Shown here in pieces: positions 9,246 through 50,698 of a DNA stretch of 64,000 nucleotides. Below the pieces are notes generated by a model, which saw only the letters and a list, made by a program, of their open reading frames with translations, made no database searches and was not told where the DNA came from. This DNA is from Sulfitobacter alexandrii (GTDB lineage: Bacteria > Pseudomonadota > Alphaproteobacteria > Rhodobacterales > Rhodobacteraceae), in assembly GCF_001886735.1 (NCBI RefSeq), contig NZ_CP018076.1:2542001-2606000 (forward strand). The letters run 5' to 3'. Both the position numbers and the translations under genes were made by a program. Numbering within the stretch: the stretch's first letter is position 1; the number at the start of each line of letters is the position of its first letter.

Positions 9246-9722
9246 TCAAGCGTTGTCCGCCAGCATCGTCTCCTTGACCGCCTCCATTGCCACGTAGGTG
9301 GAGGTATTTGACACATGCGGAAGGGCTGATATCGTCTCTCCAAGGAACCGTCGGTAGGCCGACATGTCCGGCGTGCGGACCTTGAGCAGGTAGTCGAAGT
9401 GGCTGGCGATCATGTGCGCCTGTTCGATCTCGGGCACCTTGGCAACCGCCGCGTTGAAGGCCCTGAGCGCCGCTTCGCGGGTGTCGTTCAGCCGCACCTC
9501 GACAAAGGCGACGTGGTCCAGCCCCAGGCGGATCGGATCGAGCAGCGCCCGGTAGCCGATGATCACGCCGGTTTCCTCGAGCCGCCGGAGCCGGGCCTGG
9601 GTGGGCGACTTGGACAGGCCGATGCGCCGGGCGAGGTCGGTAATGCTGATCCGGCCATCCTCGGCCAGCACGGACAGGATCGACCGGTCGAAACGGTCCA
9701 GTTCAAAAGTATCGCTTTTCAC
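9246..9722 (-). CDS. putR: Lrp/AsnC-family regulator, likely proline-responsive PutR
   Basis: A 158-residue Lrp/AsnC protein: N-terminal winged HTH (LDRFDRSILSVLAEDGRISI through LARRIGLSKSPTQARLRRLE) and a C-terminal AsnC/RAM effector domain. It is divergent from putA, with 108 bases between the start codons. In alphaproteobacteria whose PutA lacks the ribbon-helix-helix domain, an Lrp-type PutR in this position activates putA in response to proline. The assignment rests on family and gene position. Confidence 0.85.
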   Translation of the reverse strand: MKSDTFELDRFDRSILSVLAEDGRISITDLARRIGLSKSPTQARLRRLEETGVIIGYRALLDPIRLGLDHVAFVEVRLNDTREAALRAFNAAVAKVPEIEQAHMIASHFDYLLKVRTPDMSAYRRFLGETISALPHVSNTSTYVAMEAVKETMLADNA

Positions 9723-9830
9723 TTCACTTGCCCCGATTAATGTTCAGATCGCCCCGCAATAATCCGAATATAAGGCAAAACGACCTACAAGGATACGATA
9801 TACTTGACGCATGACCCGATGGAGATTGCC
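9723..9830. promoter_or_regulatory. putR-putA divergent control region
   Basis: This AT-richer stretch between two divergent genes must hold both promoters and any PutR sites. I do not see a sharply defined operator. The SD for putA (GGAG at 9820-9823) lies 7 bases before the ATG at 9831. Confidence 0.55.
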
Positions 9831-12800
9831 ATGAACGCCCAGACCCCCGCTTCTCTACGCCACCGCGTGGACGCCGACACCTACGCAGATCAGGAAAGGG
9901 TCCTGGACCGGCTGATCGAAACCGCCGACCTGAGCGGCGAGGAGCGCGCCGCCATCAGCAAGGACGCCGCGGGCCTTGTGCGCGACATTCGCGGAGCGAC
10001 AGCGCCGGGCATGATGGAGGTCTTCCTGGCGGAGTACGGCCTGTCCACGGACGAAGGCGTCGCCCTGATGTGCCTGGCCGAGGCGCTGCTGCGCGTTCCG
10101 GACGCCGATACCATCGACGCGCTGATCGAGGACAAGATCGCGCCGAGCGACTGGGGCCGCCACATGGGCCATTCGACATCCAGCCTCGTCAATGCCTCGA
10201 CCTGGGCGCTCATGCTGACGGGCCGTGTGCTGGACGACGACCAGCCCGGTCCGGTCCGGCATCTGCGCGCGGCCATCAAACGGCTGGGAGAGCCGGTGAT
10301 CCGCACCGCCGTCAGCCGCGCGATGAAGGAAATGGGCCGCCAGTTCGTGCTGGGAGAGGACATCGACGCCGCGATGAAACGTGCGCGGGGCATGGAGAAG
10401 AAAGGGTTCACCTATTCCTACGACATGCTGGGCGAGGCTGCGCGCACGGAACGCGACGCGAAGCGGTACCACCTGAGCTACAGCCGCGCGATCTCGGCCA
10501 TCGCGACGGCCTGCACGGACGAGGACATCCGCAAGAATCCCGGCATTTCGGTCAAGCTGTCGGCCCTGCACCCGAGGTACGAGGTCGCGCAGGAAGAGGC
10601 GGTGATGAACGAACTGGTGCCGCGCCTGCGCGCGCTGGCCCTGCTGGCGAAATCCGCCGGCATGGGACTGAACGTCGATGCGGAGGAAGCCGACCGGCTC
10701 GCGCTCTCGCTGGAGGTGATCGAGCGGGTGATGTCGGAGCCCGCGCTGGCGGGCTGGGACGGTTTCGGCATCGTCGTTCAGGCCTTTGGCCCCCGTGCGG
10801 GCACCGTGATCGACGCGCTCTACGACATGGCGCAGAAACACGACCGCAAGATCATGGTCCGTCTGGTCAAGGGCGCATACTGGGACACCGAGATCAAGCG
10901 CGCGCAGGTGGACGGCGTGGACGGGTTTCCCGTCTTCACCCAGAAGGCCGCGACAGATGTCAGCTACATCGCCAACGCCCGCAAGCTTTTGGGGATGACC
11001 GACCGGATCTATCCCCAGTTCGCCACCCATAACGCGCATACGGTGGCGGCGGTCCTGCACATGGCCGACGACAAGGAAGCGTTCGAATTCCAGCGCCTGC
11101 ACGGGATGGGCGAGACGCTGCACAGTCTGGTGATGGAAAAGCACGGCACCCGCTGCCGCATCTATGCGCCCGTCGGCGCGCACCGTGACCTGCTGGCCTA
11201 CCTCGTGCGGCGGTTGCTGGAAAACGGGGCGAACTCCAGCTTCGTTAACCAGATCGTGGACGAGGACGTGCCGCCCGAAGTCGTGGCCGCCGACCCGTTC
11301 GAGCAGTTGGGCCGCACCAATGTCGCCATTCCGACGGGGCCGGAGGTGTTTCTGCCCCTGCGCAAGAACGCGCGGGGGTTCGATTTGTCCCACGCCCAGA
11401 CCCTGTCCGAGGTGGAAGACGCCCGCGCGCCCTTCCTGTCGCACAGGTGGGAGGCCGCGCCGCTGATCGAGGGCGATGCCGCCCCGGAGGATCCCGTGGC
11501 CGTGACCAACCCGGCGCTGCCCGAAGGCTCCCCCGGCACGGTGCGCCACGCGTCGACGGCCGATGTCGCCACCGCACTGGACGCGGCGGCCCCCTGGAAT
11601 GCGCCGCTCGACGAACGGCGCCGGGTGCTGATGAAGGCCGCCGACCTGATCGAGCAGAACTACGGCGAGATCTTTGCCCTGCTGGCGCGCGAGGCGGGCA
11701 AGGGGCTGCCCGATTGCGTGGCCGAATTGCGCGAAGGGGTCGATTTCCTCTACTACTACGCGGGACAGGCGATGAACGAGCCGCCCGCCGGCATCTTCAC
11801 CTGCATCTCGCCGTGGAACTTCCCCATGGCCATCTTTACCGGGCAGATTGCGGCGGCGCTGGCGGCGGGCAACGGCGTTCTGGCGAAACCGGCCGAGCAG
11901 ACCCCGCTGGTGGCGCATCTGGTCGTGCGGCTGCTGCACGAGGCGGGTGTGCCACGCACGGCGCTGCAACTGCTGCCGGGAGGCGGCGACGTGGGCGCCG
12001 CGCTGACGGCCGATGTGCGGATCAATGGCGTGGCCTTCACCGGCTCCACCGCCACGGCACAGCGCATCCGCGCCAACATGGCCGAACATTGCGCGCCGGG
12101 GACGCCCCTGATCGCCGAGACCGGGGGGCTCAACGCCATGATCGTGGACAGCACCGCCCTGCCCGAACAGGCGGTACAGGCGATCATCGAAAGCGCCTTC
12201 CAGTCGGCGGGTCAGCGGTGTTCCGCGCTGCGCTGTCTTTATGTGCAGGAAGACATTGCCGAAGAATTCAGCAAGATGCTGATCGGCGCCATGCAGGCGC
12301 TGAGGATGGGCGACCCCTGGCACCTCTCCACCGACGTCGGCCCCGTGATCGACGAGGCCGCGCGCAAGGGCATCGCGGATCACATCGCCGCCGCCCGTGC
12401 GGATGGCCGTGTCATCGCGGAACTGACACCGCCCAGTGAAGGCACCTACATCGCGCCCACGATCATCAGCGTGAAGGGCATTTCCGACCTTGAGCGCGAG
12501 ATCTTCGGCCCGGTCCTGCACATCGCAACCTTCAAGAGCGGCCATCTGGACAAGGTGATCGATGCGATCAACGGCACTGGCTACGGGCTGACATTCGGCC
12601 TGCACACCCGCATCGACGACCGGGTGCAGCACGTGTCCGAACGGATCGAGGCGGGCAACATATACGTCAACCGCAACCAGATCGGCGCGATCGTCGGCAG
12701 CCAGCCCTTCGGCGGTGAGGGGCTGTCCGGGACCGGGCCAAAGGCCGGCGGGCCGAACTACCTGCCGCGCTTCAGCGCGCCGGATGTCCAAGAGCGTGAC

Positions 12801-39479: not shown

Positions 39480-39553
39480 GGCGAGTTGGCGGAGTGGTGA
39501 CGCAGCGGATTGCAAATCCGTGTACACCGGTTCGATTCCGGTACTCGCCTCCA
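39480..39553 (+). tRNA. tRNA-Cys(GCA)
   Basis: A complete tRNA: acceptor GGCGAGT / ACTCGCC, anticodon loop with GCA (ATTGCAAAT), T-arm CCGG-TTCGATT-CCGG, discriminator T and encoded CCA (39551-39553). Its 3' 47 bases are the left copy of the att repeat, so the integrated element keeps the gene intact. Confidence 0.97.
39507..39553 (+). repeat. attL: 47-bp core repeat, 3' part of tRNA-Cys
   Basis: From GGATTGCAAATCC (anticodon stem-loop) through the T-arm to the CCA end, this segment is identical to 49692-49738. Flanking bases differ on both sides. Such a repeat is what a tyrosine integrase leaves after integration at a tRNA 3' end. Confidence 0.95.
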
Positions 39554-39600
39554 TTTATTTTCAATCATTTGCGTCTCACCCGTTCTTGCGCCTGTTGCGC

Positions 39601-39630
39601 CGTTTACAGGGGCGTTTACAGTTTTGTTCA
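39601..39630 (+). repeat. left integrase arm-type repeats
   Basis: Two copies of CGTTTACAG (39601-39609 and 39613-39621). The 22-bp stretch 39609-39630 matches 49649-49670 near the other end at 20 of 22 positions in the same orientation. They lie just inside attL, where Int arm-binding sites occur. Confidence 0.6.
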
Positions 39631-40680
39631 CGCTGCACCCCCTTTTGCATGCGCTAGCTTGACCAGGACAGCGTCGGTTTCGTCGGGCGATACGCGGGCG
39701 TAATGCTCGATCACGTTCGCCGCATAGCGGACAGACCAGCCCATGTGATTGGCGATCTCGGCAAGCGACAGGCCCGCATTCAGCAGACGGGTTGCGGCCG
39801 TGCCTCGGCAGTCCTGCAACCGCAGATCTTCTGACAATCCGGCCTTGCGCCGATAGCGCGTTACGGCGTTGGAAGCCGAACGAGCGGTCAATGCCTGACC
39901 TTTACCGCCAACCAGAATTAGCAGACGGTCGTCTGGTGTAGTGTCGATCACATTGGCCAGTTCTGGCGTAATCGGAATATGCGCTAGACGTTTCCGCTTG
40001 TCAGTTCGAACTCGGAGTCGTCTGCCCAATGGGGTCTTCTCAACCTGGGGCTTGGCAAGTTTCACCAAGTCAGCGGGACGCAGCCCAGTTTCACAGTCTG
40101 CGCAGAGAATGCGGCGGACCCACTCCGGTGCGACCGCGTTGAAGGCTTCCCGGTCGGCCGGGGTCCAGACGATTTCCGAGCGGTCCACCTCATAGATCCG
40201 GTGGAGCTTGTGGCAATGATGTTCGGACAACTTGCCCTCATCCACCGCCCAATTGAGAATGCGAACCGCGTGGGTGCCCGCCATATCGTGCTGCTTGGGT
40301 GAGTGCTTCCAGAGCGCCCGCCAAGCGTTCACCTCACCCCGTGCGCCGGGTTCCTCGAAGATGACGGCTGGCGCATCCTTGAAATGGTCCGCGAATCGCA
40401 GGCCCCATTTCCGAATGTCGGCGCGGGACCGTTCACCCTTGGGCATGGCGGTGCTGGAAAGGAAGTCATCCACCATTTGGGGCGTCGTGTAGTCGGCCGG
40501 TTTCGGACGCGCAGCGGCTTCCGCAAATGCCTGATAGAACGCGGGGTCGCTCGGCTTGCGGTGGTCATCTTCCCAGAATTTGGGACCGCCACGCCATGCA
40601 TAGAAGTGGAAGCGGCTCTTGCCATTCGCCAGCTTCCGCCGGACGCGGTGCACACCTTTGGGCAGATCAGCTTGCGGCAC
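39628..40680 (-). CDS. int: tyrosine recombinase (integrase)
   Basis: A 350-residue phage integrase. The C-terminal catalytic domain has Arg201 in CETGLRPADLVKLA, Lys in the RTDKRKR region, Arg292 in LQDCRGTAATRLL, Trp315 in NHMGWS and nucleophile Tyr327 in VIEHYAR. The first His of the HxxR motif is replaced by Gln289, an accepted variant. The N-terminal part holds arm- and core-binding domains. It probably starts at a GTG (40680) overlapping the end of the 68-aa gene. It integrates and, with a directionality factor, excises the element at tRNA-Cys. Confidence 0.95.
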   Translation of the reverse strand: MPQADLPKGVHRVRRKLANGKSRFHFYAWRGGPKFWEDDHRKPSDPAFYQAFAEAAARPKPADYTTPQMVDDFLSSTAMPKGERSRADIRKWGLRFADHFKDAPAVIFEEPGARGEVNAWRALWKHSPKQHDMAGTHAVRILNWAVDEGKLSEHHCHKLHRIYEVDRSEIVWTPADREAFNAVAPEWVRRILCADCETGLRPADLVKLAKPQVEKTPLGRRLRVRTDKRKRLAHIPITPELANVIDTTPDDRLLILVGGKGQALTARSASNAVTRYRRKAGLSEDLRLQDCRGTAATRLLNAGLSLAEIANHMGWSVRYAANVIEHYARVSPDETDAVLVKLAHAKGGAA

Positions 40681-40873
40681 GGCTTGCCCTCCACTTTTCG
40701 AGCGGGGTCATGTCCGGCTTGGCAGCATCGCCGCCCGTCCCGGCCGTGATCAGGAACCGCTTGCCGTCGGTGGTTTCCACGACGATGGAAACCTGATCAT
40801 AGCCCGCAGCCTTCGCGGCCTCGAAAGCGGGAGTCAGGTCGGATTTGCGGATTGCGGCGGGGCGGCGCTCCAT
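40667..40873 (-). CDS. 68-residue protein upstream of integrase, possible directionality factor
   Basis: A small protein with mixed charge (SDLTPAFEAAKAAGYDQVSI, VVETTDGKRFLITAG). It lies between the regulator (2 bases away) and int (14-base overlap), so the three form one leftward operon. Position fits an excisionase, but no HTH is evident. Similar small proteins occur before integrases in Rhodobacteraceae islands; function unproven. Confidence 0.6.
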   Translation of the reverse strand: MERRPAAIRKSDLTPAFEAAKAAGYDQVSIVVETTDGKRFLITAGTGGDAAKPDMTPLEKWRASRAAS

Positions 40874-40875
40874 CG

Positions 40876-41526
40876 TTATGCTTCCTCGGCCAGCCGGATC
40901 GCGGGTCGCGGCAAGCGGTCGATTATCAACTGAGCGAGCGCTCCCAGGCAGAAGAGCATGACCGGTCCTTGCACATAGGCTCCGCCGTACTCGATGTTTC
41001 CGAAGAACTCTTCGCCAAAATCTTCCTCATCATCGTGATAGAATTTCAGCGAACCGTCGGCCCAGATAACCAGCCAATTCGGCTGCTTCATCCCGGAGAT
41101 CCCGGCATAGCTTTCGGCTGCCCTTATCATCACCTCTTGGGTGCGAACCATCATGAGCATTTCGTCTTTGAAGTCAGGGCCGAGATGTTCCTTGAGGTGC
41201 ATAACCTCGGCTTCTGGAAGCTCGCCGACTTCTTTTCTGGCCCTTGCGTGAACTTCTGGCGCAAATGCCTTCTTGCTCCAGATCGCACTTTGAAAAATCG
41301 CCTGGGCGGCGTGACCGGCATAGGCCTTGGCGGCGTCTGGGGTCATGCCCCGCGAGACCAACATCTCCATCGCGAACATCAAGAGCAGGTCACGCAAGTT
41401 GTAACGCGCGTGTCCCACAGGCTTGGGAAGATAGTTTGCGCGTCGCCAGTTGCGAACCGTCGCCTGCTTGACCGCCGTGATCGCCTCGGCCTCGCTCGGG
41501 GTATATGTTTCCAATTCCAGTTTCAT
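40876..41526 (-). CDS. MerR-like winged-helix regulator of the element
   Basis: A 216-residue protein. The N-terminus is a MerR-type HTH (SEAEAITAVKQATVRNWRRA, then GHARYNLRDLLLMFAME); the rest is a charged domain with a hydrophobic tail. SD GAGG lies before the ATG at 41526. Its promoter region carries the paired GTAGNNCTAC palindromes, so it probably regulates its own operon, including int. No typical CI or Cro repressor is present elsewhere in the element, so this is the likely switch. Confidence 0.7.
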   Translation of the reverse strand: MKLELETYTPSEAEAITAVKQATVRNWRRANYLPKPVGHARYNLRDLLLMFAMEMLVSRGMTPDAAKAYAGHAAQAIFQSAIWSKKAFAPEVHARARKEVGELPEAEVMHLKEHLGPDFKDEMLMMVRTQEVMIRAAESYAGISGMKQPNWLVIWADGSLKFYHDDEEDFGEEFFGNIEYGGAYVQGPVMLFCLGALAQLIIDRLPRPAIRLAEEA

Positions 41527-41540
41527 CGGCCACACCTCAT

Positions 41541-41602
41541 TTCGTGTAGTGCTACGCGAAGGTGAAGTCTACGTCAAGACATTTCGCGTAGCGCTACACA
41601 TT
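41541..41602. promoter_or_regulatory. paired palindromic operators upstream of the element's regulator
   Basis: GTAGTGCTAC at 41546-41555 and the perfect palindrome GTAGCGCTAC at 41588-41597, each in a larger TTCGnGTAGnGCTACnC context. Their centres are 42 bp apart, which is four helical turns, so two dimers would bind on the same DNA face. They lie between the leftward regulator gene (start 41526) and the end of the Tat-protein gene. Confidence 0.75.
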
Positions 41603-41625
41603 TTGGCGGGCTTATCTTTTGCCGT

Positions 41626-42057
41626 TCAGACTGCCCCCGCTTTGAACTCACAGAACAGACACTTGCCTATCATCGAATGTTTGGCGAACTCCGCCAAAAA
41701 GCCTACCTCGATCCCGGATCGTTCCTGGCCAGCACGCAGCATGTCAAACACGGCCCAATTGAAGATTGCGGAGTAATTATGCTCGAGCATGTGACTCATG
41801 GCGAGGTGGGCGAAGTGGGAACCGGTATCGCAATCGGCCATGTAGTCACCAGAGGGTTCTACCGACCAGAAGATGCGAGGCGGTAGACCGGCCTGGCGCT
41901 CGGCGCGCGTAGTGTCGCGCACAAACGGTAGAGACAGGATCGGGTCAAGCTCGGCGGAAGCTTCCGGTCCGGCGAAGATCGGCGCGGGCAGTGTCAGAGC
42001 TGCGCCGGTGGCTGGAATTGCGGCAAGTACCGCGCGGCGGGTCACTTGGTTGTTCAT
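41626..42057 (-). CDS. Tat-signal protein of unknown function inside the satellite
   Basis: A 143-residue protein. The N-terminus carries a twin-arginine-like export signal (TRRAVLAAIPATGAALTLPA), then a short mature region with several aromatic and His residues (RIFWSVEPSGDYMADC, HFAHLAMSHMLEHNYSAIF) and a CLFC motif at the end. I do not recognise a family. It could be a lysogenic-conversion or superinfection-exclusion protein. Start ATG at 42057. Confidence 0.6.
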   Translation of the reverse strand: MNNQVTRRAVLAAIPATGAALTLPAPIFAGPEASAELDPILSLPFVRDTTRAERQAGLPPRIFWSVEPSGDYMADCDTGSHFAHLAMSHMLEHNYSAIFNWAVFDMLRAGQERSGIEVGFLAEFAKHSMIGKCLFCEFKAGAV

Positions 42058-42383
42058 GGTATCAGTCTCACAGTTTGGCTTGTCACGGCCGTGCCAGTGG
42101 CGGACTGGCGCCGGGGTGTTGACAACCTCCTGTGAGAGAGGCCGAACGTATTTCCGCAAGCGGTCTTGTATTTCGTTCGCACCCCGACATAATCCGTCGG
42201 CATACGAACCGCCGCCAAGCGGGTTCGTCATTCGACCGCCCTACGCGCCAACGTAGGAGCCTCGATCAGGTGATGCGGTCTATCACAGTCCGGGTTGTCA
42301 CGCCCACGGACACCTTTCACGAAAATGGATTTTGGTTCAAGCTCTACTTGGAGTTAGAAAACGGGAACGCTTGGAGTGAGGCT
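42058..42383. other. 326-bp stretch without a convincing gene, control region of the element
   Basis: Lies between the leftward Tat-protein gene and the rightward 82-aa gene. It must hold at least two promoters. An upstream extension of the rightward frame reaches 42273 but lacks an SD. No clear operator or RNA structure seen. Confidence 0.4.
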
Positions 42384-42632
42384 ATGGACCAGGACTACTT
42401 TGAAGATCGAATCGCGGGCCTTGAAGCCGAATTGTCAGAACTCAAAGATTTGACGATAAACATGGGTCGGGCACTAGCCGTTGCCTTGGGTGAAGTTGCT
42501 GAATCGAGTGGCGGTCATTCGTTCATGGGAGTCGGTGTCGAGCCTCATGAGGTCGGATTTAAGGATATCCAAGCTGTGCACGAAGCATTCAGAAGGGGCC
42601 AAGCGATTGGAAGGGCTTATAAAGATCAGTAG
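42384..42632 (+). CDS. 82-residue coiled-coil-start protein of the element
   Basis: The only rightward gene of the element. The ATG at 42384 has a double SD (GGAG, GAGG); a longer start at 42273 gives 119 residues but no SD. The protein begins with a coiled-coil-like helix (EDRIAGLEAELSELKD) followed by a Gly/Ser-rich region and a charged C-terminal helix. The stretch is AT-richer than its neighbours. Function unknown; a scaffold- or regulator-like role is only a guess. Confidence 0.5.
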   Translation: MDQDYFEDRIAGLEAELSELKDLTINMGRALAVALGEVAESSGGHSFMGVGVEPHEVGFKDIQAVHEAFRRGQAIGRAYKDQ

Positions 42633-42659
42633 GCAGGCCAGCGTCTTGCATGGCCTGCC
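42632..42659 (+). terminator. hairpin after the rightward small gene
   Basis: A 9-bp stem GGCAGGCCA / TGGCCTGCC with a 10-nt loop, starting at the last base of the TAG stop. No T run. It separates the rightward gene from the convergent end of the head operon. Confidence 0.5.
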
Positions 42660-42767
42660 CCACCGCTCACCGGCCCTGTAAGGTTAGGCCGCACGGCTGC
42701 CGGTGTTTTCCCACTACCGGCTAACGGGGGTGCTTAAGCTGGCATAAACAGCAAAGGCGCACCCTGC

Positions 42768-43832
42768 CTATCTCTCCCAATCCACCATGCGCATAGCCCC
42801 GGACACGTCGGCCGGGGCTATGTCGGCGGCTTTCGCCTCGGCCATCGTCTTGATGATCGCAGACAGCGCCCTCGCGCGTCCGCCAGCGTCGAAGGCTTGC
42901 AAGGGCCGGATCGTGTCAATCGTCACCTCGGTCCCGAGCTTGGCCGTCGCCTCATCCGCCAACAACGCGGCGATGGGTTGCAGCGTCCAGATTGCGAGCT
43001 GGCGTTGCGCCTCGCGGATCACGGGGCCGGTGGCCGCGCGGTTGAAAAATGACGGCAGGACACCATAGGCCATGCCGATTCCCTCGCGCGCCGCCGCCAG
43101 TGTCTCGTCAGTCATGCTCTTGGACAGGTCCGGCGAGAGCTGATCCGGCTTCTGGCCAATGGTCGGGTTCATGCCCGCCGCCGTCGCCTGGGCCACGCCC
43201 TCGATCACCAGCGTGGAGCCGCGCCGCCCCCGGAAGGCCCCGCGCATCGAGGCCATGTCATCGGCCCCGGTGTCCGGCAAGGGCACGATCTGCGAGCCGA
43301 GCGGAGCATTCTCGAACGTCTCCGCAAGCGCCGCCTCGACCGCGTGGAGCATCCCGCCCGTGAGGCTGGACCGGCGCAGCGGGGCGGTGCCGATCCACGG
43401 CGTCAGGTTGTCCGAGCCGATCCGCAGGTGCAGCACCTCGGCCGCAAGGGCCGTGACAGTGCGCCCGCCGCCCGCCTCGGGGATGGACAGGCGATAGGCG
43501 CGGGGCTTGCCGTCGCGGGTGGTCACGTCCCAATCCGTGGCCGGGACAAGCCCCAGCTCGGTGATCAGTAACACCGCCTCGCCGTTCAGCGCGGCCGCGC
43601 GCGCAATCATCGCCATCGTCTGCCGGGTCAGCAGGTCGGTGCCGGTCACGTCCGCCATTGCGAACCCGCCTTCCCAAAGGCTGACGCAGCTCTGCACCGT
43701 CGCCGTCAGCTCGGCCACGCCGCGCCGCCCGCTGATGAAGCTGTCCCGTGCCGCCATGACCTGGGCCGTGTAGCCCGATCCGCTCGACCGGGCCTCGATC
43801 GGGCGCAGCTTGTTCATGAGCCATCCGAGCAT
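42768..43832 (-). CDS. phage portal protein
   Basis: A 354-residue HK97-type portal. The start has an almost perfect SD (GGAGGTGATC) before the ATG at 43832, 2 bases past the protease stop. Family features are the N-terminal RPIEARSSGSGYTAQVMAAR, the VTGTDLL region, LRIGSDNLTPWIGTAPLRRS and a C-terminal GIGMAYGVLPSFFNRAATG with an alpha-helical stem. It forms the dodecameric DNA entry ring at one capsid vertex. Last gene of the head operon. Shorter than many HK97 portals, which may reflect a satellite-sized head. Confidence 0.9.
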   Translation of the reverse strand: MLGWLMNKLRPIEARSSGSGYTAQVMAARDSFISGRRGVAELTATVQSCVSLWEGGFAMADVTGTDLLTRQTMAMIARAAALNGEAVLLITELGLVPATDWDVTTRDGKPRAYRLSIPEAGGGRTVTALAAEVLHLRIGSDNLTPWIGTAPLRRSSLTGGMLHAVEAALAETFENAPLGSQIVPLPDTGADDMASMRGAFRGRRGSTLVIEGVAQATAAGMNPTIGQKPDQLSPDLSKSMTDETLAAAREGIGMAYGVLPSFFNRAATGPVIREAQRQLAIWTLQPIAALLADEATAKLGTEVTIDTIRPLQAFDAGGRARALSAIIKTMAEAKAADIAPADVSGAMRMVDWER

Positions 43833-43834
43833 GA

Positions 43835-44413
43835 TCACCTCCACCGGACTGCGGCGGGGCGGTGCGCCAGACGCTTGGCCACCTCGCCGATGGGTTGCCA
43901 GTTCCGGGCCTCGATCTGGGCTTGCGGATAAGCGGGTTTCGTGACGGCGCTGATCTCGATCAGGTCAGCCGCCTTGATGGTCCGCAGGATCGCCGTGCCG
44001 CGTTCCTCGACCGTCTCGCCGCCTGGCCGGACGCGGAAGCCGGGGGACAAGCCCCGCACCAGCCCGGCCGCATGGGCCGAGAGGAAGTCCCGGACATAGC
44101 TGACCTGGCCCATGTCGGCGCTGATCGTCGCCTCAACGGTCAGCGCGTCATCGGTTTCGGTCAGGGTCAGAGTGCCGGCCGAACGTGAGGCCAGCGGCTT
44201 GTTGAAGTCATGGCCGGACAGGAAATGCACGTCCTCGCCGCGCTCGATCCGATCCGCGAAGGCACGGGCTGCGATCACCTCACGACGCTCACGGCCCATG
44301 CCCACGCGCTCGGCCAGCACGGTTTCCCGGCCGTAGGGGAAAGTTGCCCGAAGGCGGATTTCTCCGCCCTCGGTGCGCAGCTCAAGGCTGCCGACATGAG
44401 CGCCCCAGAGCAT
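43835..44413 (-). CDS. HK97-family prohead protease
   Basis: A 192-residue U35-family serine protease. The catalytic His68 sits in GHDFNKPLAS and Ser123 in RGLSPGFRV. It removes the scaffolding delta domain of the capsid protein during maturation. ATG overlaps the capsid gene's TAA (TAATG). Ends 2 bases before the portal start. Confidence 0.9.
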   Translation of the reverse strand: MLWGAHVGSLELRTEGGEIRLRATFPYGRETVLAERVGMGRERREVIAARAFADRIERGEDVHFLSGHDFNKPLASRSAGTLTLTETDDALTVEATISADMGQVSYVRDFLSAHAAGLVRGLSPGFRVRPGGETVEERGTAILRTIKAADLIEISAVTKPAYPQAQIEARNWQPIGEVAKRLAHRPAAVRWR

Positions 44414-45687
44414 TACGCCCCCGCTTCCAGTTCGAGGCCGGTCAGCAGTTGGAGCTGGGCCGGGCGCGCCACGGTCACGTCCATGGTGGCAAGCGCGGTG
44501 ATCCGCAGCCCACCGGACTGTGCATCGCTGTAGGGGTCGCGGATCATGTCCACCGCGCCCCAGGCACCGATGAAGATTGGGGCCACGCCGCCCGCCGCGG
44601 TGGTCAGCAGTGCCTGGGTGGCCAGAGGATCGCCGGACGGCGCGGCAAGCGCATTGTTCGTCATGGCGATGTTAGCCGTGGGAAGGTTCTTCACCATGCG
44701 GTCCCATTGGGACACCGCCGTGCCGTCGATCAGCGCACCGTCCAGGAAGTCCCACAGCTCGGGACGGATCATCGCCCGCACCGCGTCCGGGGAGGCGGCG
44801 GCGTTCGCGGTCATGAACCGGGTGACGGCCGAGCGGAACGCCCCCCAGCTCGCCAGCGCGGTCACGGCCGTGGACGTGATGCCGTAGATCGCTGCGCCCG
44901 CGATGACGCCGAGTGGCTGGCCGTTGGCCCCCGTGCCTAGGAACGCCGCCTGATCCATCGCCGCGCCCATGGCCCCGCTCATGTCGCGCCGCACCGCCTG
45001 TTCCAGCGCCGCACCGGACTGCTTGAGCGTCTTGCGGGTGATCCGCATCTGAATGCCGAGGTTGTGATCCGGCGACATGGCACGGTCGGTCGTGGCATAG
45101 GTGGTCGGCCCGGCCACGTTCGCCGTCTCGCCGTCCGCCCAGCCCGCCGTGACGGCCGAGGTGGTCACCGGCCACTCCAACGCGCCCGCGTCGATGCTGA
45201 TCATCTGCGCCCCCATGCGCGCCGCCACGCTGTCCGGGAACAGCCGGTCGATGATGGGGCGCGTCTGGATCGGGTTCGGGGTGCCGCTGGCGACGGTCTC
45301 ACCAGCCCGGACTTCCAGCGCCTGCCACGGCACGGGAATGCCCCGGAAGCCGCCCGCGCTGCGCAGCTCGGACACGATCTCGGCCGTCTGGCCGTCCAGT
45401 TGCCGCCCCTCATCGAGGGCCAGCGCCACCTGGCGCAGCTCGAACCCGGCCATCAGCTCGGCCCATTCCTGCGCGGAGCGGGTTTCCAGCTCGCTGCCCG
45501 CGTCCCGGCGCTCGGTATCTTCCGCAATCAGGGCGGCGCGATACCGGGTTTCGTTGGCGCGGTATTCCTGATCCAGCGTTTCCATCTGGCGGATTTCGTC
45601 TTCGGACGGGGTTTCCTTGCCTGCCAGCTCGGCGAGGTTCTGGCGGATTTCGCTTTGCCGCCGTGCGATCTTCACAGATTCGAGCAT
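44413..45687 (-). CDS. HK97-fold major capsid protein
   Basis: A 424-residue capsid subunit. Residues about 1-75 form a charged coiled-coil delta domain (ARRQSEIRQNLAELAGKETP, then EDEIRQMETLDQEYRANETR) that acts as internal scaffold; the protease site probably lies in residues 95-130. The rest is the HK97 shell fold (GNARISIDAGALEWP-like strand, MRITRKTLKQSGAAL, GTGANGQPLG, and the C-terminal YSDAQSGGLRITAL). Its length and scaffold imply a self-sufficient head. SD AAGGAAAC is seen before the ATG. Confidence 0.92.
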   Translation of the reverse strand: MLESVKIARRQSEIRQNLAELAGKETPSEDEIRQMETLDQEYRANETRYRAALIAEDTERRDAGSELETRSAQEWAELMAGFELRQVALALDEGRQLDGQTAEIVSELRSAGGFRGIPVPWQALEVRAGETVASGTPNPIQTRPIIDRLFPDSVAARMGAQMISIDAGALEWPVTTSAVTAGWADGETANVAGPTTYATTDRAMSPDHNLGIQMRITRKTLKQSGAALEQAVRRDMSGAMGAAMDQAAFLGTGANGQPLGVIAGAAIYGITSTAVTALASWGAFRSAVTRFMTANAAASPDAVRAMIRPELWDFLDGALIDGTAVSQWDRMVKNLPTANIAMTNNALAAPSGDPLATQALLTTAAGGVAPIFIGAWGAVDMIRDPYSDAQSGGLRITALATMDVTVARPAQLQLLTGLELEAGA

Positions 45688-46028
45688 TGTTTGTTTCCTT
45701 TCTGCTCAACAGGGGTGTCGGGCCGCTCAAGCGACTCGACCATGTTCCGCCAATCCTGGCGGTCCTTTCGGGGCGGGGGATGCCCGCACTCGATCCGGGT
45801 TTTTCGGCTGTGGCAGCCTGGGCAAAGCGCCTGAAGGTTGCCGGGGTCATAGGACAGCTCGGGATGCGTTCTGACCGGCTTGATGTGGTCGACCTCGAGG
45901 CGGCCGCCGCAGCCGCAGGACCGGCAGCGGTAACGGTCCCGCTCAAGGATTTCCGCGCGCAGCGCCTTCCACCGCTTGGTGCGGGTGACGTGGCGGGAAT
46001 GCCGCTGATGTTCCTTGCGAACGCTCAC
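45672..46028 (-). CDS. HNH endonuclease of the packaging module
   Basis: A 118-residue HNH nuclease, similar in type to HK97 gp74. A GTG start (46028) overlaps the head-closure stop in a GTGA, and its end overlaps the capsid start by 16 bases. Zinc and catalytic residues: CRSCG (Cys35, Cys38), LEVDHIKP (His48), DPGNLQALCPGCHSRKT (Asn64, Cys69, Cys72, His73). In cos-type phages this protein assists terminase cleavage of the genome end. Confidence 0.9.
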   Translation of the reverse strand: MSVRKEHQRHSRHVTRTKRWKALRAEILERDRYRCRSCGCGGRLEVDHIKPVRTHPELSYDPGNLQALCPGCHSRKTRIECGHPPPRKDRQDWRNMVESLERPDTPVEQKGNKQCSNL

Positions 46029-46366
46029 GGTACGTCCCTCGCGTACGCCGTGATTTCGAGGAAGGCGCGCGTGTCCGGCACTTCCTTGATTCCGTCGATC
46101 TCGTAGACGACGCCCTCGTGCACGATCCTGTCGAAGCGAGTGATGCTGCGGCCGGAAGCGGTTGCCCGGATGACAAACCTTGTCACCAGCTTGTTGTCCC
46201 ATCGCCCCGCCATCATGCGCTCAGAGTCGGACACGTCGCGCCGGCGCGCGAAGATCGGAGCGCCCAGGTCACTCCAATCGTCCTCGAAGCCGCCTTGGCC
46301 GTCCGGGGTCTGCGTGGTCCGCTGAATTTGGATGCGGCGGTTGAGGTTTCCGGCGTTTAGAACCAT
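46025..46366 (-). CDS. head closure / head-tail adaptor protein
   Basis: A 113-residue beta-rich protein of the SPP1 gp16 / phi-type head-closure group (NLNRRIQIQRTTQTPDGQGG, WSDLGAPIFARRRDVSDSER, FVIRATASGRSITRFDRIVH). It caps the connector and gives the docking face for a tail. Kept in an element with no tail genes, it is the part expected to fit a helper's tail. Start at 46366 overlaps the terminase stop by 10 bases. Confidence 0.85.
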   Translation of the reverse strand: MVLNAGNLNRRIQIQRTTQTPDGQGGFEDDWSDLGAPIFARRRDVSDSERMMAGRWDNKLVTRFVIRATASGRSITRFDRIVHEGVVYEIDGIKEVPDTRAFLEITAYARDVP

Positions 46367-48078
46367 GCCATCCTCGCTTTCGTTTTGGGTTGAGCCGCCA
46401 CGCGCGCGCCTTGGGCGACGGCGAGGACAGACGCGGCAGCCGCGTCGATCCGGCCAGTCGAACGGGCCTTGGCAAGCTTGAGGTTGTTCGCGGGGTCGCG
46501 CAGGCAGACCGCATCCGAGAAGGCCGAGCGCAGCAGCAGAGACGGCTTCGCCTTCACCTGGCCGTCGAAGGCGGCGCGGCGGAAACGTTCGCAATCCTCG
46601 CCGCCGTCGCGGAAGCCCTGCCCGCGCCAGACGATGGGCGCTCGGATACCTGCCCGGTTCATCGCCTCGCCCAGCTCTGCCTGCTTGTAGCGGTCGGCCG
46701 TGATCGCAGTGACGTGCTGGCCCTCGACATGGCGCATCACCTCGGCGAGCCACGGGGCAACAGGCACCGTCTTGTCGCCCAGCACCGTCAGCTCGCCCCG
46801 CTCGTGCATCTCGACATAGCGCCCGGCCACGCCGTCCGCCTGGCCCCGGTCCAACAGGTTCGGCGCGGAGGGGAAGGTGCCCACGCATTCGAGCCTCCCC
46901 GTCTCGGGCCAGTAGAACGCCGCTGCCGTCATCGAGGCCGAGCCGCCCAGGTCGATCCCGATCACGACCCCGCCTTGGCGTGGCGGGAGCGCGTCGGTCT
47001 CGCAATGCTGCCATTCGTCGGGCGTAATCAGCATGTCACGGGTTTCGCCGGAAATGCGCTCATTGCGGTTGTAGAGCCGGAAGCTCGTGAGGCTGGAACC
47101 GCCCCGCGCGATAGCGCGCTTCGCCTGGGCTTCCAGCCAGTCCAGAGAGCTGCCAATGCCGTGAGGTGCGCCGGGGTTGGCGATCAGCAGGCTTTCGGCG
47201 TCATCCGCTGGCAAACCCGGTGCGGGTCGATGCTCCTGCACGTAAGTGCCCGGAACTGGATCATCTATCCAGCGGGAGAAGGGATGCGTGTCGTCGCTGG
47301 CCGAGGTACTGATCAGGAACGCCCTGCCCCCGCGTTTGCCGAGGCCGGACAGCAAGGCGTGTTCCAGCTCGTCGCCGCGATCCAGCGGCCAGTGGCCGCG
47401 CTCGTCCAGGATTGCCATCGTCGGCGCGCCGCCCAGGGCGGATTTCGCGTCGGCAGCGATGACGCGCAAGACGTGCCCGCCCCCGTCGCCCTCAAACTCG
47501 ATTTCGAGGCGCGGCGCGCGGCGGTAGATCAGGCGGTGCCGGACTTCGAGCGGCAGGGTGGCAGCGAACCCGGCCACGAAATCCCAGACGATGCGCCCCT
47601 GATCACGGGTCCGGGCCGCTGCGACGATCTCGCGCCGGGGCTGCCGATCCCAGACTCCGAGCAAGCCGCCCAGGGCCAGCCCCGCCGTGATCGCAGACTT
47701 GCCGTTGCCACGACCGATGCTGAGAATGGCGTTCGCCGTATCCGGTGCCATCGCACCTTCGATGAAGCGGCGCTGGAAAGGTGCGAGAGTGACCGGCTTT
47801 CCGGCGTTCGGCCCCTCGGGAATGCTCAAGCCATGCATGAACTGCAAAGCTCGCTCGGCCGGGGGCGTCTCATCGTCGGGCGCGAAAAGAGAAAATTCCC
47901 ATCCACGGTTCCCCGGATCGGTCGAAGACGCGGCATTGGGACCAAGGCCAAAAAGGTCGGCTTGCTCGTCGGTCGAGCGCATTGGCGCGGGAGGCAGCAT
48001 CGTGCCGTCAGCTCTGCGCCAAGCCCGCTCTCTCTTTGCTGTCTCCGCCATCGCCATGTCCTCGCGCGTCTCTCTCAT
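46357..48078 (-). CDS. terL: terminase large subunit
   Basis: A 573-residue packaging motor. ATPase: Walker A SIGRGNGKSA (residues about 120-129), Walker B PTMAILDERGHW and the coupling motif ISTSASDDTHP. Nuclease: VIGIDLGGSASMTAAA (first Asp) and later acidic residues (ITADRYKQAELG; GRIDAAAASV). It packages and cuts DNA. The ATG at 48078 overlaps an upstream TGA; the ATG at 48057 is an alternative with SD GAGG. No typical small terminase is recognised upstream. Confidence 0.92.
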   Translation of the reverse strand: MRETREDMAMAETAKRERAWRRADGTMLPPAPMRSTDEQADLFGLGPNAASSTDPGNRGWEFSLFAPDDETPPAERALQFMHGLSIPEGPNAGKPVTLAPFQRRFIEGAMAPDTANAILSIGRGNGKSAITAGLALGGLLGVWDRQPRREIVAAARTRDQGRIVWDFVAGFAATLPLEVRHRLIYRRAPRLEIEFEGDGGGHVLRVIAADAKSALGGAPTMAILDERGHWPLDRGDELEHALLSGLGKRGGRAFLISTSASDDTHPFSRWIDDPVPGTYVQEHRPAPGLPADDAESLLIANPGAPHGIGSSLDWLEAQAKRAIARGGSSLTSFRLYNRNERISGETRDMLITPDEWQHCETDALPPRQGGVVIGIDLGGSASMTAAAFYWPETGRLECVGTFPSAPNLLDRGQADGVAGRYVEMHERGELTVLGDKTVPVAPWLAEVMRHVEGQHVTAITADRYKQAELGEAMNRAGIRAPIVWRGQGFRDGGEDCERFRRAAFDGQVKAKPSLLLRSAFSDAVCLRDPANNLKLAKARSTGRIDAAAASVLAVAQGARVAAQPKTKARMAWF

Positions 48079-48422
48079 CTCTCTGTCTCGCCCCTTCCTT
48101 TGAGTGAGGGAGGGAGCGAAGGGCATAGGACGACTGCCCACAGCGCGCGGCTGTGGCAGTCCCTATGCCCCGTCGGCTGTGTCCGCCTTCCTCGTCGGTC
48201 GGTCGGTCGCTTCTGGGCCCGTCCGGTCATGCGCTCCTGCCGGTCGGTCGGTTGCTGCTTGCGACACCGTGAGCGCGGTGCCGGGGATCGGGCCTCAACC
48301 TTGCGGACTGCCCTTTGCCTGTGATCCCGCCCGTGGTAGGCTGACCGATGTGGAGCCACCGTTGCTAACCCGTTCCACCACGTCGGCCCTGCGTCTGGGG
48401 TGGCGCGCAGGGTCGCCCTCAC
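48075..48422 (-). CDS. possible 115-residue Arg-rich protein before terL
   Basis: A frame from a GTG directly after the upstream stop to a TGA that overlaps the terL ATG in an ATGA, thereby joining the chain of overlapping genes. The product is rich in Arg, Pro and Thr (SRCRKQQPTDRQERMTGRAQ) and has no recognised domain. It runs through the GTCG iterons and the long hairpin. It could be a diverged small terminase or simply open by chance in GC-rich DNA that holds a packaging site. Confidence 0.3.
   Translation of the reverse strand: MRATLRATPDAGPTWWNGLATVAPHRSAYHGRDHRQRAVRKVEARSPAPRSRCRKQQPTDRQERMTGRAQKRPTDRRGRRTQPTGHRDCHSRALWAVVLCPSLPPSLKGRGETER
48121..48170. other. long hairpin directly upstream of terL
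   Basis: Left arm GGGCATAGG...ACTGCCCACAGC and right arm GCTGTGGCAGTCCCTATGCCC pair almost fully around GCGCG, 43 bases before the terL start. Strong structure in DNA or in the mRNA leader. Possible roles: packaging (cos/pac) site element or translational control of terL. Confidence 0.6.
48194..48254. repeat. GTCG tetranucleotide iterons near terL
   Basis: Four tandem GTCG units at 48194-48209, a separate CGGTC near 48225, then two GTCG units plus GTTG at 48243-48254. Clustered short iterons beside terminase genes are typical of small-terminase binding sites. Together with the adjacent hairpin this is the best candidate for the element's packaging start. Confidence 0.55.
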
Positions 48423-48423
48423 C

Positions 48424-48654
48424 TCACCTTTCGATCAGCTCGACTTCTGGTTCTGGCGCGGTGCCCAGCTCGGACACCAGCCGCCGCATGATCTGCTCTT
48501 GCTTGGCAGAAGGTCGCCACGATGGGCGCTTGCCATGCCGGGCAATGGACTTGACGAACTGTGCCAGCCATGGGTCGGAGCCGTCCGCCATCACACGCCG
48601 CATGACGATGGGCCAGTGAAAGGTCAGCATCACGTCCAGCTCGGGCGCAGTCAT
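48424..48654 (-). CDS. 76-residue protein of the head operon
   Basis: A short basic protein (TFHWPIVMRRVMADG, WLAQFVKSIARHGKRPSWRP, QEQIMRRLVSELG) linked by ATGA to the connector gene. Basic helices and position before terL would suit a DNA-binding packaging factor or a small-terminase-like role, but I cannot assign a family. Confidence 0.6.
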   Translation of the reverse strand: MTAPELDVMLTFHWPIVMRRVMADGSDPWLAQFVKSIARHGKRPSWRPSAKQEQIMRRLVSELGTAPEPEVELIER

Positions 48655-49199
48655 GCCTGCACCCCGCGATACCTGGCCCCGATCCGCGCCATGTGCGGCG
48701 ACGTGGTCAGGGACTTGGCGTCCATCGGGGACCGGCCGTCATAGTGCAGCGCGGCCTGATCCATGAGGGCTTGTGCGAGGTCTGGCGGCACGTCCTCCGC
48801 CGCGTCCCCGAACCCGGCCTGATACTCGATTGTCATCCGGCTTTGTGTCAGGTCGTGATAGCTGGCCAACCAGCGGACGTAGGGTCGGTTGCCGCCCACG
48901 AATTCGAAGTCGGTGAAGGCCGCGCCGTCGATGGTGACGGTCGGAAGGTCGTCATCTGCCACGGGACCGATAGGCAGGCGCAGTCCGCTTTCCCGGCAGG
49001 GGTCGAAGATCGTCACGCGGATCGTCTGGGTGAGCAGTGCGATCTGGGCGAATTGCTCAATCTCTGCGGCGGCCGTCAGACCGATGTTCTGCACCGCCGT
49101 ATCTTCGGCGTCGTCAAAAACCCGAAGGTGCAGCTTTAGGTCATCGAGGATGAAGGGCAGAGACGCATCGCCCGCAGTCCGTTGAACAAGCATCTTCAT
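48651..49199 (-). CDS. head-tail connector protein (gp6-like)
   Basis: A 182-residue connector of the HK97 gp6/phi group: helical N-terminal part (FILDDLKLHLRVFDD, NIGLTAAAEIEQFAQIALLT) and the C-terminal DLAQALMDQAALHYDGR segment. It forms the ring below the portal. Linked to both neighbours by ATGA overlaps (49196-49199 and 48651-48654). It is separated from portal by the rest of the operon, an unusual order. Confidence 0.85.
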   Translation of the reverse strand: MKMLVQRTAGDASLPFILDDLKLHLRVFDDAEDTAVQNIGLTAAAEIEQFAQIALLTQTIRVTIFDPCRESGLRLPIGPVADDDLPTVTIDGAAFTDFEFVGGNRPYVRWLASYHDLTQSRMTIEYQAGFGDAAEDVPPDLAQALMDQAALHYDGRSPMDAKSLTTSPHMARIGARYRGVQA

Positions 49200-49570
49200 A
49201 CTGCGATCTCCACTTCCGAGATATGGTTGCGGAACGCCATCTGCTCTCGCAAAGGCAGGGCCTCATAGGCTGCCAATGCATACGCCTTGCGCTCTGTCAG
49301 CGAGGCGAACGAAGCCCAGCAGCGCGCATCGTCCATCGGATTGAGGAAGGTCGGCAGGGGATAATCAGCGAAGCTCAGGACAGCTTCGGCGACGTGCTCG
49401 GCCTGTTCCGGGGTATCCAGCGCCCGAAGGGCCGCCCACGCCAATGCGGCGCGTTCTTTCACGGTCAGGCGCGCCGTTGACACGGTGGCGAACCCGGCCC
49501 AGGCGTCAGCATCGCCGAGGGTTAGGGTGTAGCCGATCATGCGCGACATGCGCTTGTGTTCCGGCTTCAT
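49196..49570 (-). CDS. first gene of the head operon, unknown protein
   Basis: About 124 residues, helical, with two similar Ala-rich helices (VKERAALAWAALRALDTPEQ; TERKAYALAAYEALPLREQM) that look like an internal duplication. Starts possible at 49570, 49549 and 49540; none has a good SD. It overlaps the connector gene by 4 nt. No family recognised. The frame stays open further upstream across attR, but the element's right end limits the gene to this side. Confidence 0.55.
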   Translation of the reverse strand: MKPEHKRMSRMIGYTLTLGDADAWAGFATVSTARLTVKERAALAWAALRALDTPEQAEHVAEAVLSFADYPLPTFLNPMDDARCWASFASLTERKAYALAAYEALPLREQMAFRNHISEVEIAV

Positions 49571-49600
49571 GAACCGGCCGAGGCCGGCCCCGCCTTTTCG

Positions 49601-49670
49601 GTTTACAGGCGGCGCGTAACCGTTTGATTTCTGGACACCCTCAAAGGGGGGGCGTTTACAGCTTTGTGCA
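49601..49670 (+). repeat. right integrase arm-type repeats
   Basis: GTTTACAG at 49601-49608 and CGTTTACAG at 49653-49661; the surrounding 22 bp (49649-49670) match the left arm site 39609-39630 at 20 positions. They lie 22-91 bases inside attR, as Int arm sites should. This stretch also must carry the promoter of the head operon. Confidence 0.6.
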
Positions 49671-49691
49671 GCGTTCTCAGAGGAGTCCGAA

Positions 49692-49738
49692 GGATTGCAA
49701 ATCCGTGTACACCGGTTCGATTCCGGTACTCGCCTCCA
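49692..49738 (+). repeat. attR: 47-bp core repeat
   Basis: Identical to 39507-39553. It holds only the 3' part of tRNA-Cys and is not a second tRNA gene. Right boundary of the element. Confidence 0.95.
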
Positions 49739-49864: not shown

Positions 49865-50698
49865 ATGGCGGACGGTCCCTGGACGGATGAAGAAAACGAT
49901 CTGATCGTGGCGGATTATTTCGCCATGCTCGCCGATGATCTTTCCGATCGCCGATATGTGAAGGCAGAGCACAATCGCGCCCTTCAAGGACAGATCGGTC
50001 GATCTAAGGGCTCGATCGAGTTCAAGCACGCGAACATCTCGGCCCTGATGCCCGCCTTCGGTCAACCGATCCTTACCGGCTATCTTCCGCGATACAACGT
50101 CCAGATGGCGCTGGCTGAGGCCGTGAACCGGTGGCTGATCGCAAATCCGGAATGGGTGGAACGGCTTCCCAAGGCCGCAACCCCAGGCATGGGCTACGTC
50201 AACGACCGACTCTACCTCGATACGCCGCCCACGATGCGCAACACCCCTCCCCCTGAAGAGGCCGAGCAGATGCGCACAATCGCGCGGCACTTCGATGTTG
50301 CAGCGCAACAGGAGCGCAATCGCGCCCTCGGACGGCTTGGTGAAGAACGCGCCCTTGCCCATGAGCGCGCGACACTCAGGGATGCCGGACGTGATGATCT
50401 GGCCCGAAAGGTCATTTGGGTCAGTGAGGACATAGGCGACGGAGCGGGATACGACATCTCCAGCTTCACGCCGGACGGCACTCCACGCCAGCTGGAGGTG
50501 AAAACGACGAATGGCTGGGACCGCACGCCATTTCACATATCTCAGAACGAATTGCGTGTTGCTGAAGAAAACCGGGATACCTGGCATCTCTTCAGGATCT
50601 ACAACAACGCGCGGGAGCCGAGGGCCTTCGAACTCCGCCCGCCGCTCGACCGCCACGTCACCCTGACACCGACGAGTTTTCAGGCAAGATTCGACTGA
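49865..50698 (+). CDS. DUF3883 protein with PD-(D/E)XK-like nuclease core
   Basis: A 277-residue protein. The C-terminal DUF3883 domain has the nuclease-fold motif GYDISSF (Asp197) and QLEVKTT (Glu211, Lys213), then PFHISQNELRVAEEN; an upstream Glu lies in LGEERALAHE. The N-terminal 90 residues (WTDEENDLIVADYFAML, IGRSKGSIEFKHANIS) form a domain often joined to such nucleases, probably DNA-binding. Such proteins are found in restriction and defence loci. It lies 127 bases outside attR, so it belongs to the chromosome or to an older island at this tRNA. Confidence 0.8.
   Translation: MADGPWTDEENDLIVADYFAMLADDLSDRRYVKAEHNRALQGQIGRSKGSIEFKHANISALMPAFGQPILTGYLPRYNVQMALAEAVNRWLIANPEWVERLPKAATPGMGYVNDRLYLDTPPTMRNTPPPEEAEQMRTIARHFDVAAQQERNRALGRLGEERALAHERATLRDAGRDDLARKVIWVSEDIGDGAGYDISSFTPDGTPRQLEVKTTNGWDRTPFHISQNELRVAEENRDTWHLFRIYNNAREPRAFELRPPLDRHVTLTPTSFQARFD

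Follow-up and report, generated by a model that had tools for sequence, protein, structure and literature searches.

Phage-inducible chromosomal islands (PICIs) usually carry an AlpA-type regulator and a primase or replication module. Capsid-forming PICIs (cf-PICIs) are defined, in the accessible part of one account, as encoding their own capsid, protease, portal, connectors, large terminase subunit (TerL) and HNH endonuclease and as having no tail (PMC10690885). Their helpers and three capsid clades (PMC11389934) and their use of diverse tails (PMC13345588) are covered in the accessible parts of two further papers, and the available part of a fourth gives a mean size of 14 kb and main hosts that do not include Rhodobacteraceae (PMC10803314). 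Here we analyse a stretch of 64,000 nucleotides from the Rhodobacteraceae bacterium Sulfitobacter alexandrii (contig NZ_CP018076.1, positions 2,542,001 to 2,606,000; hereafter the window, numbered from its first letter), in which an initial annotation, made from the sequence alone, had proposed a cf-PICI-like satellite in a tRNA-Cys gene. We consider it likely, with a probability of roughly 0.85, that this 10.2-kb element is an intact, integrated, capsid-forming phage satellite. On the best reading it functions as cf-PICIs do and represents a compact lineage found mainly in alphaproteobacteria.

Like cf-PICIs such as EcCIEDL933, the element encodes a capsid, protease, portal, connectors, TerL and HNH endonuclease and no tail genes, and has an integrase and flanking attachment (att) sites; some of its relatives also carry AlpA-like and primase genes. 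It differs from cf-PICIs in that a small terminase subunit (TerS), AlpA and a primase are not recognised and a MerR-type protein is present instead, and its family is smaller, at about 10.4 kb against the 14-kb mean. We set the element beside cf-PICIs by their descriptions, and membership by descent is unproven. Of the original proposal, comparison of the family upholds a tail-less, capsid-forming element that is not a remnant; the cf-PICI label itself is not established.

Other satellites resemble it in part. As far as the accessible text describes them, the Streptomyces phage satellites MulchRoom and MiniFlayer also have their own heads and packaging and no primase, and MulchRoom, which carries an integrase, seems to borrow the tails of its helper; compared by description, they differ from the element in their direct terminal repeats, virulent helpers, low G+C and other hosts (PMC10690885). 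Phage-inducible chromosomal minimalist islands (PICMIs), P4-like satellites, phage-inducible chromosomal island-like elements (PLEs), virion-encapsidated integrative mobile elements (VEIMEs) and tycheposons share with it that they are small phage satellites, some of them marine. PICMIs differ in having, by the available description, no capsid-remodelling genes and in depending on helper particles (PMC10803314); the remaining four were compared by name only, from the accessible part of PMC11389934.

Results

The element is inserted site-specifically at tRNA-Cys. As the initial annotation had claimed, it lies between perfect 47-bp direct repeats (39507–39553 and 49692–49738, plus strand), the first of which is the 3′ end of an intact tRNA-Cys (gca) gene recognised by ARAGORN and Rfam (39480–39553, plus strand), which serves as attachment site 1. 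With up to 3 mismatches allowed, the repeat occurs exactly twice in the window, where 100 shuffles gave an expectation of 0. In a genome of the same genus (G1123, locus L251) the site is empty: the two flanks adjoin at the tRNA end, and 72 nt separate their matched parts. Three other relatives in the genus (G1155, G1156 and G1150) hold more full or near-full copies of the repeat about 5 to 80 kb from tRNA-Cys, a pattern that points to a tRNA-Cys hot spot with islands in tandem.

We scanned 16 open reading frames (ORFs), 15 within the element and 1 just outside, against Pfam and PHROGs families. With one exception the genes of the element are transcribed on the minus strand, in an order that begins with an ORF of 124 amino acids (aa), a type A head–tail connector or adaptor (182 aa, 48651–49199; phrog_442, with PF05135 only below the cut-off), a 76-aa ORF and a noncoding stretch, and continues with TerL (573 aa, 46357–48078; TerL_ATPase, TerL_nuclease, phrog_9), a class A head-closure protein (111 aa, 46025–46360; Phage_HCP, phrog_25), an HNH endonuclease (45672–46031; HNH, phrog_144), an HK97-type major capsid protein (424 aa, 44413–45687; Phage_capsid, phrog_617), a prohead protease (192 aa, 43835–44413; Peptidase_S78, phrog_80) and the portal (358 aa, 42768–43844; Phage_portal, phrog_12). 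After the portal come two small ORFs, one of them on the opposite strand, and then a MerR_1-type regulator (216 aa, 40876–41526), which also matches the excisionase/regulator family phrog_66 weakly (E 0.0035), a 68-aa ORF and a tyrosine integrase recognised by family match (350 aa, 39628–40680). These matches bear out the integrase, MerR-like regulator and full HK97-type head and packaging set first read from the sequence, as well as the lack of tail, lysis, primase and CI-type repressor genes, families to which none of the 16 scanned ORFs matched. The element shares HK97-type head proteins and TerL relatives with phage HK97 and Rhizobium phage 16-3 (its TerL is about 28–30% identical to that of HK97-type phages), and HK97 also has an HNH gene; the 16-3 record marks a cohesive end. 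In these phages, however, TerS precedes TerL, and in HK97 the portal directly follows TerL, whereas in the element the capsid, protease and portal come after TerL and HNH.

The element is one of a large family whose members vary little in size and share one head; their head-closure and connector genes have been exchanged, and no tail genes are recognised in them. A capsid search of 394 Rhodobacteraceae genomes matched 65 at E ≤ 0.001; 40 of them have a capsid at ≥50% identity (the host's own included, and some being contig fragments), and the remaining 25 have best rows at roughly 22–35% identity. The same ≥50% level was reached in 2 of 385 genomes sampled at class level and 6 of 398 at phylum level, counts that include the host's genome and other members of its family, and in none outside the class. 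Among named genomes, 214 of 243 candidate stretches were confirmed, and by name the best 80 of these 214 comprise 77 alphaproteobacteria, one Oceanospirillaceae metagenome-assembled genome (MAG) and two assigned only to Pseudomonadota/Proteobacteria. In IMG/VR, at least 554 were confirmed among the 600 stretches listed, of which 80 were retained, all on contigs of ≤15.6 kb. By contrast, only 16 of 50,697 phage records gave a capsid match at E ≤ 1e-5, every one below 30% identity.

From these searches we assembled 201 capsid loci (200 fetched, the same place being repeated in some, plus the element in the window). Looking for exact direct repeats on either side of the head genes, we obtained att-like pairs for 88 of these loci, although some of the short ones may be spurious; 75 non-redundant elements remained after removal of 13 duplicates. 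Leaving aside two outliers (L135, 13.8 kb, and L202, 6.6 kb), the att-delimited elements measure 10,409 ± 481 bp (73 of 75; range 9,340–12,115). The element had been thought unusually small and gene-poor; its 10.2 kb is the norm of the family. As to the outliers, L135 has integrase-cluster ORFs at both ends, and no portal ORF was called in L202. Three distant relatives (L042–L044), with about 30% capsid identity, are 10.4–10.8 kb long, have tRNA-type repeats and lack the 13-bp site described below.

Across the family, insertion sites include tRNA-Cys, Asn, Glu, Arg, Phe, Thr, Lys, Leu, Ser, Pro, Ala, Gln and Met. An integrase was recognised in 72 elements; at a threshold of ≥60% identity to that of the window, six others qualify, at 70–88%, and all six lie in tRNA-Cys. 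We dropped the idea that integrase type always tracks the site, as 4 of 11 tRNA-Cys elements (L223, L058, L054 and L183) carry dissimilar integrases; two integrase classes thus use this one site. A primase is found in 25 of 75 relatives and an AlpA-like gene in 15 of 75. The proposed version without a replication module stands insofar as no primase is recognised in the element; 50 of 75 relatives likewise have no primase profile match, some of them carrying other replication-initiator-like genes.

A full tail cluster in a close relative, which had been named as the finding that would turn the element into a deletion remnant, was sought and none was found. We used 21 tail-region queries from prophages L259, L260, L262 and L235 and from L234, a cluster in the host genome resembling a gene transfer agent (GTA). 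None of the 201 capsid loci (stretches of up to about 21 kb) matched, and all 4 control prophage loci that supplied no query (L261, L263, L264 and L265) did. With self matches excluded, the queries found 3 of the 5 loci from which they came, but not L235 or L234; the test is therefore sensitive to similar tails and may miss others. The queries were first named by place and length, and 16 of the 21 were later checked against families: 13 match tail or neck families, 1 a glycoside hydrolase and 2 families of unknown function. We also compared 108 representatives of the non-core ORFs (≥95 aa, coding strand) with PHROGs. Their matches are mostly to replication families; two match the neck family phrog_169 and two match head closure, and no tail-tube, tape-measure or fibre family occurs among the 25 listed of the 84 families matched.

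The head genes are under purifying selection. Compared with L154, L155, L156 and L161, nine head, packaging, neck and small conserved genes have ratios of nonsynonymous to synonymous substitution (dN/dS) of 0.06–0.32, one dS in this set being saturated; ratios are higher against the more distant L212 and L070, up to 0.62 (head closure, L212). The MerR-like gene was compared with two relatives only, L167 (28% identity, dS saturated) and L212 (48%, dN/dS 0.26). In the same four close relatives the capsid (93–94% identity) and portal (92–96%) are better conserved than the connector (58–88%) and head closure (46–75%). Head closure is not in every case the least conserved of the head and neck genes, as we had first thought: in L155 the connector is lower.

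Neck genes are exchanged between elements. Profile searches of the 75 elements found connector A in 35 and a B or C protein in 39, never both, with neither in L036. Proteins B (184 aa) and C (187 aa) are encoded between the protease and portal, and because of this place and their mutual exclusion with connector A we read them as putative connectors. Head closure is of class A in 23 of 75 elements and of class B (phrog_161) in 18 of 75. Mapped onto a quickly built capsid tree with 75 rows, the A/B connector label changes at least 8 times, 5 of these changes being forced by well-supported branches; since 28 of 72 inner branches are open, only these 5 are firm. The same tree needs 22 changes for head-closure class (A, B, other, none), 17 for primase and 16 for integrase side. 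The head closure of the window is also 37–46% identical to those of the tailed prophages L259–L265, whose capsids and portals do not match those of the element and whose TerL matches at 22–25% in two and not in the other five. A conserved head with exchanged neck genes is the pattern that tail matching predicts, and recombination for other reasons could also give it.

A conserved 13-bp site, TGGTCCCAATGCC, lies near the TerL start (47932–47944, minus strand) and is present as a single copy in the 4.69-Mb host genome, within the element. In 63 of 75 elements its 12-mer core, GGTCCCAATGCC, occurs with ≤1 mismatch near the TerL start, in a zone reaching from 700 nt before to 400 nt beyond the point where the TerL match begins, with 64 matches in all on the coding strand and 0 on the opposite strand; ten Markov shuffles gave a mean of 3.3 and a largest value of 7. 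The flanks of the 13-mer are variable, and in the window the site falls inside TerL codons. In IMG/VR, a scan with 14-mers alone found the family TerL in at least 57 of 88 loci among the matches listed, and a second reading in which both 14-mer scans were mixed found it in at least 50 of 139 among the matches listed. One MAG contig (L208) begins exactly at the 13-mer, from which we draw nothing. Because it lies near the TerL start, in a single copy and on one strand only, the 13-mer is a candidate cohesive-end (cos) site, or another cis-acting site.

Just upstream of TerL is a noncoding stretch of about 345 nt (48079–48423, minus strand) whose alignment shows conservation in close relatives: compared in 26 elements, 24 of them of similar length, it contains well-conserved blocks, and in the window it holds a strong hairpin at 48121–48170 (z −4.5 as DNA). 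It may serve as an origin or in packaging or regulation. The 76-aa (48424–48654) and 124-aa (49196–49570) ORFs, both on the minus strand and conserved in alignments, give a three-helix and an all-helical model, respectively (124- and 76-aa proteins: mean pLDDT 86 and 88, pTM 0.52 and 0.73); we read both as TerS candidates, though they lack a family or solved-fold match. The 68-aa (40667–40873, minus), 143-aa (41626–42057, minus) and 122-aa (42264–42632, plus) ORFs match no family. By eye, the N-terminus of the 143-aa protein looks like an export signal, and the 122-aa ORF is possibly cargo. PADLOC, applied to these five ORFs, the MerR-like protein and the integrase, gave a single match within the element, a weak one to the MerR-like protein.

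The host genome also contains prophage L235, which carries genes for a major tail protein, a tail terminator and a tape measure, and, separate from the element, the GTA-like cluster L234, with head, tape-measure and large tail genes. L235 is a possible helper, its head closure being only about 32% identical to that of the element. GTA tails as the donor of the head closure are unsupported, because a head-closure search of the host genome matched the element and the prophage and not the GTA-like cluster.

Two members of the family were found as circles. In Gemmobacter serpentinus a whole contig (L210) is a 10,340-nt circle with a 96-nt terminal repeat; no integrase is recognised in it, and a 238-aa ORF weakly matches winged-helix proteins. 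The contig title gives a coverage of 941, and besides a 65% match of about 360 nt it is the sole copy in its genome; it looks like a satellite plasmid. The IMG/VR contig L305 (9,970 nt, 144-nt terminal repeat) is likewise circular, and the family profile finds no integrase in it.

Outside the right repeat, a gene at 49865–50698 encodes a NOV_C domain and strongly matches the candidate defence family PDC-S36. It lies outside the element, since the matching flank is present in the empty-site genome too.

Discussion

If the element works as its genes suggest, entry or induction of a helper phage would lead the integrase to excise it as a circle, with the MerR-like or 68-aa protein as a possible excision factor. 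Its DNA would be copied by helper or host machinery, because no replication gene is recognisable in it. TerL and the HNH nuclease could then cut at the cos-like site near the TerL start, and TerL would fill a small capsid with about 10 kb of DNA. The satellite's connector and head-closure proteins would complete the neck and dock onto the tails of a siphovirus-like helper, which would lyse the cell, and the hybrid particle would inject its DNA into a new cell for integration at tRNA-Cys.

HK97-type temperate phages have tails and lysis genes, the two hallmarks of a tailed temperate prophage, and the element has neither among its scanned ORFs. It is extremely unlikely to be the deletion remnant of such a prophage that lost them. 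Its HK97-type head genes would fit a remnant, as would TerL relatives at 28–30% in tailed phages (best rows), but there are many tail-less elements of nearly equal size at many tRNA sites, tail matches are absent from all 201 capsid loci, phage records hold only the few distant capsids noted above, and selection on the head genes is purifying. The accessible text on the MiniFlayer satellite describes short tail fibres (PMC10690885), and several small ORFs of the element have no known family, which would suit a self-sufficient small virus that does without a helper's tail, being tail-less or forming a short tail from unrecognised proteins. Its portal, connector and head closure, however, imply a tail, the nearest head closures belong to prophages with tape-measure genes, and no lysis or replication family matched in the 16 ORFs; we regard such a virus as very unlikely, if a little less so than a remnant. 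Least probable of the three is a GTA-like or domesticated head cluster packaging host DNA. Such a cluster (L234) does occur in the same genome, but it is separate, and the element has an integrase and att sites, is patchily distributed and is missing from its site in a relative; a gene transfer agent, by comparison, is a head and tail cluster that is not a mobile integrating element.

The 13-mer could instead be a replication, regulatory or other binding site, an alternative that touches one step of the mechanism and not the satellite itself. It is a serious possibility, if somewhat the weaker one. The genome ends of HK97 and 16-3 do not match the 13-mer, contig ends do not pile up at it in the 80 IMG/VR contigs, and 12 of 75 elements, including the three distant ones, lack it; its place near the TerL start, single copy and strand bias fit a cos site.

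Several observations weigh against a tail-stealing satellite. Excision, particles and transfer are read here from genes. No TerS was recognised in the scanned ORFs, nor was any replication gene in the element, and the models of the 124- and 76-aa proteins have no PDB match at E ≤ 0.001. The four representatives of the B/C protein that were scanned matched no family. Tailed prophages share more with the element than head closure, as the HNH protein also matches in most of L259–L265 (34–59% over 37–83 aa) and the protease in one (30%). The low identity of the L235 head closure counts against that helper. The tail queries came from prophages chosen for similar head closure, so tails of another type could be missed, and much larger relatives are not detectable in stretches of at most about 21 kb. 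A repeat pair went undetected in 113 of 201 capsid loci, 72 of them IMG/VR contigs, and none of the 80 IMG/VR contigs has exact terminal repeats. As L210 and L305 have no recognised integrase, their circles are no proof that integrated forms excise.

Taken together, the results may describe a mainly alphaproteobacterial satellite family of about 10.4 kb, present in around one in ten of the host-family genomes sampled. Its members would retain the same small head and one 13-bp cos-like site, and would exchange their neck genes time and again so that these match tails from different helpers. The sublineage of the window would leave replication wholly to helper or host, and some members (L210 and L305) would persist without integration as circular satellite plasmids. 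We offer this combined picture tentatively, its chance of holding in every part being slightly short of even.

In the open literature searched we found no report of such elements in Rhodobacteraceae; papers or supplements beyond it may mention them. If our reading is true, satellites that steal tails are common in these bacteria. The near-constant size of about 10.4 kb, the exchange of neck genes and the 13-bp site would allow tests of what governs the choice of tail by a satellite head, and also of the lower size limit for a packaged HK97-type satellite genome, and existing viromes could be re-read for such satellites with a 14-base tag.

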